A stretch of 64,000 nt of DNA from Erythrobacter sp. (GTDB taxonomy: Bacteria > Pseudomonadota > Alphaproteobacteria > Sphingomonadales > Sphingomonadaceae), in NCBI GenBank assembly GCA_027311945.1, contig DAICXZ010000005.1:1-64000 (forward strand), read 5' to 3'. Below the pieces are notes generated by a model. The model saw nothing but the letters and a program-made list of their open reading frames with translations, did not search any database and had not been told where the DNA came from. This document shows, one piece after another, positions 18,877-51,085 of the stretch (within the stretch, counting starts at the first letter, position 1; every line of letters begins with the position of its first letter). Made by a program: the position numbers and the translations under genes.

Positions 18877-18890
18877 TGAACGAATCTTGC

Positions 18891-18925
18891 TCGTCATTGC
18901 GAGCGTAGCGAAGCAATCCAGCTCC
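18891..18925 (+). repeat. REP-like palindromic repeat, left copy (family A)
   Basis: tcgtcattgcgagcgtagcgaagcaatccagctcc. Confidence 0.85.
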
Positions 18926-18926
18926 G

Positions 18927-19226
18927 ACGCACGCCAGCTTCCAACCTGCGGTCTACCTCATGGCCAACCGCAAGCATGGCGCGGTCTACACGGGCGTGAC
19001 ATCGGATCTGCAACGGCGCGTCTGGCAACATCGCGAAGGTTTGGTCGACGGCTTCACCAAGAAATACGGGTGCAAGCTGCTGGTCTGGTTTGAGCTGCAC
19101 GCCACCATGGAGCTGGCGATCTTGCGCGAGAAGCAGATCAAGGGTGGCTCGCGGAAGAAAAAGGTGGCTTTGATCGAAGCGGAAAACGCCGACTGGTTCG
19201 ACCTCTGGCACAGAATCCGGGTGTAG
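18927..19226 (+). CDS. Small GIY-YIG nuclease family protein (start uncertain; first ATG at 18960)
   Basis: In-frame HASFQPAVYLMANRKHGAVYTGVTSDLQRRVWQHREGLVDGFTKKYGCKLLVWFE...LREKQIKGGSRKKKVALIEAENADWFDL. Confidence 0.8.
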   Translation, partial: THASFQPAVYLMANRKHGAVYTGVTSDLQRRVWQHREGLVDGFTKKYGCKLLVWFELHATMELAILREKQIKGGSRKKKVALIEAENADWFDLWHRIRV

Positions 19227-19262
19227 GAGCTGGATTGCTTCGCCTTCGGCTCGCAATGACGA
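19226..19262 (-). repeat. REP-like palindromic repeat, right inverted copy (family A)
   Basis: ggagctggattgcttcgccttcggctcgcaatgacga; reverse complement of the left copy except the loop. Confidence 0.85.
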
Positions 19263-19286
19263 AGCGATTTGGGCTAAGCAGCTGAC

Positions 19287-29480: not shown

Positions 29481-29572
29481 CCGCTCATCCTGAGCTTGTC
29501 GAAGGATCGTTCTTTCTTCAAGCACCACGGCCCGAAACAAGGACGGCCCTTCGACAAGCTCAGGGCGAGCGG
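29481..29572. repeat. Inverted pair of palindromic repeats (family B, REPIN-like)
   Basis: ccgctcatcctgagcttgtcgaaggatcg / cggcccttcgacaagctcagggcgagcgg separated by ~34 nt. Confidence 0.85.
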
Positions 29573-47804: not shown

Positions 47805-48485
47805 TCAGCGCCCACCATAGCGGCGCTCCCTCGTCGCGAATTCCTCGCAGGCAGCGCGCAGTTCGGCCTCGCCAAAATCGGGCCATAGCACGTCGGTGAA
47901 TAGCATCTCGGCATAGGCCGATTGCCACAGCAGGAAGTTCGAAAGGCGAACCTCGCCGCTGGTGCGGATCAGCAGGTCCAGCGGCGGCAGGTCGGCGGTA
48001 TAGAGGTGCTTCTCAATGGCAGAGGCCGTAACTTCACCCTCCTCAGCCGCCAGCGCGGCCGCGCGAACGATTTCCTGCTGCGAACCGTAATTCAGCGCCA
48101 CCGCCAGTGTGCGCTGGCCGCCCGCCGTCCGCTCCAGAGCATCTTCAAGCCGCGCGACAATATCGGGATCGAAAGCCTTGTAATCGCCAATAATCTTTAA
48201 GCGCAAACCTTTGGCGATGAAGTCCGCAATGTTGGCCTCAATAAAGCGTCGCATCAGGTTCATGAGGTCGGAGATTTCCTCCGCCTCACGCTTCCAGTTC
48301 TCGCTGCTGAATGCATAGAGCGTCAGGCACTCGATCCCGAGCACCTCGCAGGCTTCGACTACGCGCTTGACCGCGTCGCCGCCCGCCTTGTGACCCATGG
48401 CGCGCGGCAGCATACGCTTCTTCGCCCAGCGGCCATTGCCGTCCATGATAATGGCGACATGGCGGGGATAGGACGTTCCGGACAT
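47805..48485 (-). CDS. uppS: Undecaprenyl diphosphate synthase
   Basis: HVAIIMDGNGRWAKKRMLPRAMGHKAG; LIRTSGEVRLSNFLLWQSAYAE. Confidence 0.97.
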   Translation of the reverse strand: MSGTSYPRHVAIIMDGNGRWAKKRMLPRAMGHKAGGDAVKRVVEACEVLGIECLTLYAFSSENWKREAEEISDLMNLMRRFIEANIADFIAKGLRLKIIGDYKAFDPDIVARLEDALERTAGGQRTLAVALNYGSQQEIVRAAALAAEEGEVTASAIEKHLYTADLPPLDLLIRTSGEVRLSNFLLWQSAYAEMLFTDVLWPDFGEAELRAACEEFATRERRYGGR

Positions 48486-48502
48486 GGAGACCTTTCTGCC
48501 GC

Positions 48503-49091: not shown

Positions 49092-49811
49092 TCAGTCCTT
49101 GCGGACAATCGTCTGCACGCCCTCACCCGCCAGCACGCGCGCCACGTTACCCTTCTCACGGATCGAGAACACCACGATCGGGATATCGTTCTCGCGGCAT
49201 AGCGCTACGGCTGCTGCATCCATAACCTTGAGATTGGCCGAAAGCACCTGCGAATAGGTGATCGTTTCGAAACGAACCGCGTCGTCGGCCTTTTTCGGGT
49301 CCTTGTCATAGACCCCGTCGACGCTCGTGCCCTTGAGCAGCGCATCGCAGTTCATCTCCGCCGCGCGCAGCGCCGCGCCGGTGTCGGTGGTGAAGAACGG
49401 GTTGCCGGTGCCAGCGGCGAAGATCACGATCCTGCCCTTCTCCAGATGCCGCTCCGCACGGCGACGGATGTAGGGTTCGCACACGGCGGGCATGGGAATG
49501 GCGCTCTGCACGCGGGTTTCGACGCCTGCGTTCTCAAGCGCATTCTGCATCGCGAGCGCGTTCATGACGGTGGCCATCATGCCCATATAGTCCGCCGTGG
49601 TCCGATCGAGGCCCTTGGCCGCGCCCGAAATGCCGCGAAAGATATTGCCGCCGCCGATAACGAGGCAGATTTCCAGCCCCGTCGCGTGAGCGGCCTTCAC
49701 CTCTTCGGCAAGGCCTGCAACAAACTCCGGGTCGATGCCGAACTCCTGCTCGCCCATCAGCACCTCGCCCGAGAGCTTGAGGAGAATGCGTTTGGTATCG
49801 GGCAGGAGCAT
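49092..49811 (-). CDS. pyrH: UMP kinase
   Basis: [46 protein letters not shown]. Confidence 0.97.
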
Positions 49812-50002
49812 GGGCGCGGGTTCCTTGGGCGTGGGCAGGTGTTGCGCGCTCTTAGAGAGACGCGGGGCACGTGCCAAGGGGCTACACCTCGCCACACGGG
49901 TGCAACGTGCCTCGGCAATCGAGCCGAAAGGCCTTCCATTCGTCATCGCGGCAAGGCATCATTGCCCCCGCACATTCTGACGATGATCGTGGGGAACCTG
50001 TC

Positions 50003-51061
50003 ATGCGTAGTTTGTCCTTACCTCTGGTCGCAGCGCTCGGTTTCATGGGCGGGCCGCTGTTCATATCGCCCGCAGCTTCGCAGTCCCCGGCCCGGCAGCC
50101 TGCCCTCGAAGCCGCACAGGCGATCCAACTGTTTGCCGAAGCAGGCTTCCCGCTGGTCGAAGGGCGTCCGGTCAACCGCTGCGGAAGACCGTCAAACCCG
50201 CGCATTGCCTTTGTCGATCTCAACGGAGACGGCGCGGCCGAAGCCCACATCGCCGATGTGGATCCCGCCTGTTACGGAAAGCCCGGTGCCTATTTCGCCA
50301 TCCTCGGCCAGGCGCAGGACGGCAGTTGGAAACGGCTGATCGCCGAAGACGGCATCGTGGGGTTCGAACCGTCGCGCACGCAAGGGTGGAGCGACCTCTC
50401 GCTCGAGGCCCGCGACTCCGCCTGCCCCGGCCCGCGGCGCTTTACCGGTAGCGATTATGGCGCCCCGACCGCCTGTGCGGCCTGGGCTTCCACGGCGGGC
50501 GAGGCCGTCGCTGTCGCCATCGCCGGGGCTACTGAAGCGCCAGCGCCGCCCCTCACCGGCACCCGTATCGAACAGCTGGCGCAACTACTGCGCAACATCG
50601 CTCCCGCCGCGCACGAGCGCAGCTGGGTGCGCGCCATGGCCGCCTTCCCCGGTGCGAGCTGGGGTGCGCGTGAAAGCCACCGGCCCAACTGGTACGGCTC
50701 CGACCAGTCACTCTCGGGCGTCATTCGTCTTGACGGAGTGACTTATGACATCGGGATCAGCGGAACCGCCGAGGTAGTGAACGAAATCAATATCGGCGGC
50801 CCCGGCAACGACAACCTCGAGTGGTCGGAGATCGCGGCAGCGATTCCCGCAACGGGCGCTTCGTCGCGCAATATCGGCTGCCACAGTCCAACCGGCTTCG
50901 GCTATGTCCGCCTGACTTTCGAAGGGCAATCGGCGGTGATGCACAAATTCATGAACTACGGGACTGCCGTGCCGAGCACCGATCACTACAACTTCATGCT
51001 CATCGATCCAATGGATGGCAAGACCGAGGCCGAGGTCGCCGCTGACCGCACGTACTGTTGA
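50003..51061 (+). CDS. Secreted hypothetical protein (FG-GAP-like DLNGDGAAEAHIADVD segment)
   Basis: Signal peptide MRSLSLPLVAALGFMGGPLFISPAAS; single long ORF with low antisense plausibility. Confidence 0.65.
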   Translation: MRSLSLPLVAALGFMGGPLFISPAASQSPARQPALEAAQAIQLFAEAGFPLVEGRPVNRCGRPSNPRIAFVDLNGDGAAEAHIADVDPACYGKPGAYFAILGQAQDGSWKRLIAEDGIVGFEPSRTQGWSDLSLEARDSACPGPRRFTGSDYGAPTACAAWASTAGEAVAVAIAGATEAPAPPLTGTRIEQLAQLLRNIAPAAHERSWVRAMAAFPGASWGARESHRPNWYGSDQSLSGVIRLDGVTYDIGISGTAEVVNEINIGGPGNDNLEWSEIAAAIPATGASSRNIGCHSPTGFGYVRLTFEGQSAVMHKFMNYGTAVPSTDHYNFMLIDPMDGKTEAEVAADRTYC

Positions 51062-51085
51062 TACAGGCAACTGTCACAACGAAAA

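Follow-up and report, generated by a model that had tools for sequence, protein, structure and literature searches.

The stretch of DNA analysed here (hereafter the window) comprises 64,000 nucleotides of an Erythrobacter sp. genome (contig DAICXZ010000005.1, positions 1 to 64,000). The region between rnd and the downstream regulator gene holds a small open frame for a GIY-YIG nuclease enclosed by two inverted REP palindromes, and a gene-less dimer of a second repeat family lies about 10 kb further on. The features considered are the following:

18877..19286, no strand assigned: rnd-lysR intergenic region holding the unit, from comparison with same-genus genomes
18892..18920, + strand: left REP, with an unpaired CGTC tag, an imperfect hairpin (ATTGC...GCAAT) and a CCA tail; sequence CGTCATTGCGAGCGTAGCGAAGCAATCCA
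18909..19226, + strand: GIY-YIG nuclease open frame; the conserved part of the protein starts at 18942, the first ATG lies at 18960 and the stop codon at 19224-19226
19231..19261, - strand: right REP, an inverted copy of the left REP reading TGG...GACG on the + strand; inverted match score 27
29481..29572, no strand assigned: gene-less inverted dimer (REPIN-like) of family B, CTGAGCTTGTCGAAGG; the same type brackets two other GIY-YIG genes of the genome

The bracketing REP measures 29-31 nt and occurs as the inverted pair CGTCATTGCGAG..GCAATCCA (type A), with divergence between the copies confined to the surroundings of the loop. A previous reading of this DNA, made from the sequence only, had proposed inverted repeat copies around the GIY-YIG ORF, and the segments at 18892-18920 and 19231-19261 are indeed reverse complements. 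The right REP begins four bases beyond the TAG stop codon (19224-19226), and the predicted hairpin of the left REP leaves CGTC unpaired. Since inverted scores of at least 15 were reached in related loci at 1-2% of displaced positions set at the same spacing, the match seen in the window is not attributable to chance. The downstream neighbour, previously described as oxyR-like, is a LysR-type regulator gene.

From the end of the left REP to the first GIY-YIG strand, the window ORF contains no ATG, GTG or TTG codon, and translation from the ATG at 18960 would remove the near-invariant first tyrosine, which precedes that codon. The window ORF is therefore described here as a 105-codon open frame with an unusual or lost start, so that the earlier claim of an ORF of about 100 codons holds for the frame but not for an ordinary start. 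Because position 18927 reads ACG in the window in place of the GTG found in a close relative (L025) and the ATG found in L026, the window copy may have been inactivated recently; alternatively, it may use a rare start codon. The encoded protein matches PF01541 in Pfam (E=2.3e-12), and the Pfam/NCBIfam domain search yielded neither an NCBIfam name nor additional DNA-binding domains. The nuclease spans some 95-100 residues with a single GIY-YIG domain, in which Y21, R31 and E68 are invariant and Y10 is nearly invariant across 41 homologues, and it thus carries the domain and the conserved Tyr, Arg and Glu of the GIY-YIG superfamily. Its predicted fold (pLDDT 92) is closest to UPF0213 NMR structures, followed by the UvrC N-domain and Slx1, enzymes whose substrates are branched or damaged DNA. 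The dN/dS ratio between the window copy and L025 is 0.06, indicative of strong purifying selection and, hence, of a copy that has been used; the fold is intact and purifying selection has acted on the gene.

The type-A pattern has 11 matches in the 3.04-Mb genome, against none for the reversed control, and, with homologous genes also bracketed, flanks of this kind are not confined to the rnd-lysR locus. The remaining type-A copies are mostly paired into inverted, head-outward dimers about 100 bp long. These repeats display the features of the CGTC REP super-family defined by Di Nocera, De Gregorio and Rocco in 2013 (PMC3733652), namely an unpaired CGTC tag, a stem, a loop, a CCA tail and head-outward dimers, although their stem is imperfect, their loop exceeds the short loop of the definition, and their hairpin is weak (z -0.1) compared with those of the C and D types (z -3 to -4). 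Five PF01541 genes are present in the window genome, uvrC and four standalone genes. All four of the latter are bracketed by inverted palindromes belonging to three families (A, B, B and C), with CCGCTCGTCCTGAGCTTGTCGAAGGACCGC and CCGCTCAGCCTGAGCTTGTCGAAGGC as type-B and CGTCGCCCCGTGCTTGACACGGGGC as type-C brackets, whereas uvrC, checked alongside them, has no palindromic brackets. Family B may belong to the CGTC super-family as well, with some copies that begin with CGTCC and others with CCGCTCAGCC. The B dimer at 29481-29572 is shared with G060 and G059 and absent from G058, G050 and G057. Such presence or absence of REP dimers was found within synteny of 88% identity, with edges that are not sharp. 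At 48472-48499 a B-type dimer is found in G060 and none in the window, between flanks of 88-93% identity and without a clear target duplication, and at 49811-51082 the window carries about 1.27 kb, compared with some 90 bp in G060 and G059.

Bracketing was counted at an inverted-match score of at least 13 under a fixed geometry, with displaced positions as controls. By this measure, 67 of 75 close homologues are bracketed, almost throughout by type A, against 18 of 433 displaced positions. These homologues share 61-89% identity with the window protein and come from Alpha-, Beta- and Gammaproteobacteria, with one from a Planctomycete. An independent sample of standalone GIY-YIG genes, taken from 40 genomes of the family plus genomes across the class, returned 82/102 bracketed genes (displaced, 13/528), or 68 against 3 displaced at a score of at least 20, and hence other copies of the nuclease are also flanked. 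None of 20 UvrC genes reached a score of 13 (highest, at most 12.5), and the three YhbQ/UPF0213-like proteins of the sample (L245, L255 and L265) are unbracketed, as are a Photobacterium copy and one Rhizobium copy that were checked. The prediction that the Neisseria gonorrhoeae homologue would be associated with dRS3 held, its gene being bracketed by inverted copies of CGTCATTCCCGCGCAGGCGGGAATC, a dRS3-type CGTC repeat. Brackets also surround the Azospirillum lipoferum copy, located within the suf operon, and copies in Sinorhizobium meliloti, Shinella, Sphingobium and Novosphingobium, and in some units the nuclease ORF extends into the right REP. Intact nucleases include L026 and the C-type WP_041550427 of Novosphingobium pNL2. 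The phages searched for the nuclease gave one weak match only.

Several loci depart from the simple arrangement. A full REP dimer, and not a single REP, lies on either side of the nuclease in L047, L062, L099 and L127, and in the Bradyrhizobium loci L072 and L076 type-A repeats form tandem arrays with a spacing of about 169 bp adjoining the nuclease gene. L083 holds, at a contig edge, a tandem pair of 100% identical nuclease-REP dimer units with a 518-bp period, the product of either a recent duplication or an assembly artefact. In L302 (Spirosoma) and L299 (Planktothrix) the nuclease is bracketed by other inverted palindromes, which suggests that the link reaches beyond the Proteobacteria, to the Bacteroidota and Cyanobacteria.

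Bracket types (A to E) mapped onto a tree built from 140 nucleases require 11 changes, against a mean of 62.2 after shuffling, with 0 of 200 shuffles as low; types were assigned by pattern, five of them manually, and the short alignment leaves the inner branches weak. Type B forms a single clade on one side of a branch with a support of 98. Several types coexist per genome, each with its own nuclease clade, and shared host ancestry alone is therefore insufficient to account for the pattern. Bracketing is specific to two GIY-YIG clades, and REP type is matched to nuclease clade.

We also compared repeat and nuclease content across 152 further Alphaproteobacteria, sampled at roughly one or two genomes per family; a genome counted as REP-rich from four A or C/D-type repeats upwards. 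A member of the nuclease clade is present in 25 of 35 REP-rich genomes and in 21 of 117 others (OR 11.4, p=7.5e-9; two repeat families counted, no correction for phylogeny beyond the sampling). Y1 transposases of the RAYT family, in comparison, occur in 11/35 and 26/117 (OR 1.6, p=0.27), and PF01797 (Y1/HUH) has 0 matches in the whole window genome. Within the genus, the split at four or more copies is not significant, and the association of the nuclease with repeat number (p=0.026) carries the caveat that scoring 10 candidates made nuclease detection incomplete in repeat-rich genomes. The clade nuclease is missing from ten of the 35 REP-rich genomes (G120, G132, G145, G151, G157, G158, G168, G196, G203 and G212), six of which (G120, G157, G158, G168, G203 and G212) have a single PF01541 gene, presumably uvrC. 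The earlier concern that the repeat might abound in the absence of this nuclease subfamily is thus partly justified, with G203, G212 and G196 as examples. The ten exceptions are compatible with enzyme loss, unassembled sequence or more distant enzymes, and weigh against a strict requirement for the nuclease.

Comparison of insertion sites revealed that in about 20 same-genus genomes the rnd-lysR gap is free of the unit and measures 14-137 nt. The closest empty site (G059; 28 nt) is 90% identical, although the gap itself does not align. The nearest relative (G060/L025) and L026 both have the unit, and L151 (G044) carries about 1.3 kb of other sequence between rnd and lysR. Full flanks were available for 71 homologue loci, which fall into 38 distinct genomic contexts. 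On Sphingobium plasmids, the REP-to-REP stretch is exactly what distinguishes filled from unfilled sites, and the unfilled form retains one hybrid palindrome, CGTCACCCCGGGTCAAGCCCGGGGTGACG, which could equally be a deletion scar. At the pTom locus, L303 and L311 are filled and L308 and L310 hold the palindrome. Direct flanking repeats of 3 nt or more were found in 0 of 48 nuclease units. The target-site duplication that marks DDE insertion sequences and MITEs is thus missing, which argues against cut-and-paste of the DDE type.

The arrangement resembles that of RAYT (TnpA_REP) genes with GTAG REPs and REPINs in combining a small enzyme gene between inverted REPs, gene-less dimers and an enzyme-specific repeat type, and inverted, type-specific REP flanks are found here too; the RAYT system, however, employs a Y1 HUH enzyme and a GTAG tag, whereas the present unit has an unrelated GIY-YIG nuclease, no Y1/HUH transposase gene and a CGTC tag. 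Phage Seg-type free-standing GIY-YIG homing endonucleases are likewise small mobile intergenic nuclease genes, but they carry extra DNA-binding domains and are not known to have palindromic brackets. The nearest solved fold and sequence are those of UPF0213/YhbQ-like single-domain GIY-YIG proteins (1zg2), which differ in being unbracketed in our sample. CGTC REPs, including Neisseria dRS3 and Rickettsia RPE-4 and RPE-6, share with the window repeats the CGTC tag, short hairpin, CCA tail, head-outward dimers and a mainly alphaproteobacterial distribution (PMC3733652). They were reported to "apparently lack a dedicated transposase", and it was proposed that their transposase had been lost or that many enzymes serve them (PMC3733652); GIY-YIG proteins go unmentioned in that work, whereas here the nuclease is tied to the repeats. 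A term search of the 2006 GIY-YIG survey (PMC1564403) returned no mention of flanking repeats, and the open-access literature searched contains no description joining GIY-YIG to REP, REPIN, RAYT, dRS3 or CGTC repeats.

The nearest rival to a role of the nuclease in REP movement is homing from one REP to another, in which no new REPs arise. A free-standing homing-type endonuclease would cut nuclease-free REP dimers, which would then be repaired from a nuclease-bearing copy through REP homology, so that the gene would spread across existing REPs that it neither makes nor moves. GIY-YIG is a classic homing fold (PMC1564403), and the lack of target duplications in 48 units, the exact inter-REP difference between Sphingobium sites with a hybrid palindrome left in the unfilled one, and the varied genomic contexts of the homologues would all be expected under homing. 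It leaves unexplained, however, why the presence of the nuclease goes with a much higher frequency of same-type gene-less dimers, and how insertion occurred where relatives have no REP, as at rnd-lysR, and we consider it unlikely, if the most serious of the alternatives.

The likeness of the fold to the structure-specific nucleases UvrC (N-domain) and Slx1 and the strong purifying selection (dN/dS 0.06) would also suit a host-type function, the resolution or trimming of REP cruciforms or REP-borne structures by a nuclease that stays beside REPs because they drive or regulate its expression; patchy presence, many sites, several types per genome and exact two-sided bracketing make this improbable. 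Less probable still is that the gene is a passenger, captured by REP dimers that a Y1/RAYT or DDE transposase moves. GTAG REPs are moved by RAYTs, and Y1 genes do occur in 11 of the 35 REP-rich genomes, but the window genome has no Y1 transposase, the class-wide association is absent (p=0.27), no Y1 gene flanked by CGTC repeats appears in Di Nocera et al. (PMC3733652), and a captured gene would not be expected to track repeat type over the tree. Finally, REPs are abundant and mostly intergenic (PMC3733652), and could be so frequent that some small gene comes to lie between two of them; yet with 80% of standalone GIY-YIG genes bracketed against 2-4% of displaced positions and 0/20 UvrC genes, chance flanking is ruled out by these controls.

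Together, these results establish, through bracketing, co-occurrence and empty sites, that a GIY-YIG gene and its own REP form a recurrent, type-specific unit. The explanation that we favour, with a probability of roughly 60%, is that REP-linked GIY-YIG nucleases are the enzymes of CGTC REPs, acting at the hairpins without target duplication. Under this explanation, the unit would be an autonomous CGTC-type REP element, consisting of two head-outward REP hairpins with the nuclease gene in the spacer, and the inverted REP dimers of about 100 bp found elsewhere would be its gene-less form. The nuclease would recognise the REP hairpin of its own family, extruded from supercoiled or lagging-strand DNA, and nick at or near the unpaired CGTC foot, after which dimers with or without the gene would be cut out or copied and joined elsewhere; recognition of the hairpin, cutting at the tag and mobilisation are our inferences. 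Against it count the ten REP-rich genomes without the nuclease and the 21 of 117 REP-poor genomes with it (two families counted), the weak A-type hairpin, the abnormal start codon in the window and the possible origin of the Sphingobium palindrome as a deletion scar. The analogy to RAYT-REP systems drawn by the sequence-only reading therefore extends to layout, recurrence, type-clade specificity, co-occurrence and empty sites, and falls short in the repeat-rich genomes that are nuclease-free. The wider proposition, that GIY-YIG proteins are the dedicated mobilisers of both the CGTC REP super-family and the CTGAGCTTGTCGAAGG family, forming tiny transposons (about 350-400 bp) that move without target duplication via terminal hairpins and not through DDE, HUH, tyrosine or serine enzymes, appears to us evenly balanced.

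CGTC REPs abound in Alphaproteobacteria, Neisseria and Rickettsia, and each repeat family now has a candidate enzyme, providing matched enzyme-repeat pairs that are directly testable in vitro. If confirmed, this link would assign a role to many proteins annotated just as "GIY-YIG nuclease family protein" or "excinuclease ABC subunit C", and would explain the origin of a large share of bacterial intergenic repeats. GIY-YIG nucleases are thus the best candidates for the spreader of an abundant class of REPs reported without a dedicated mover.
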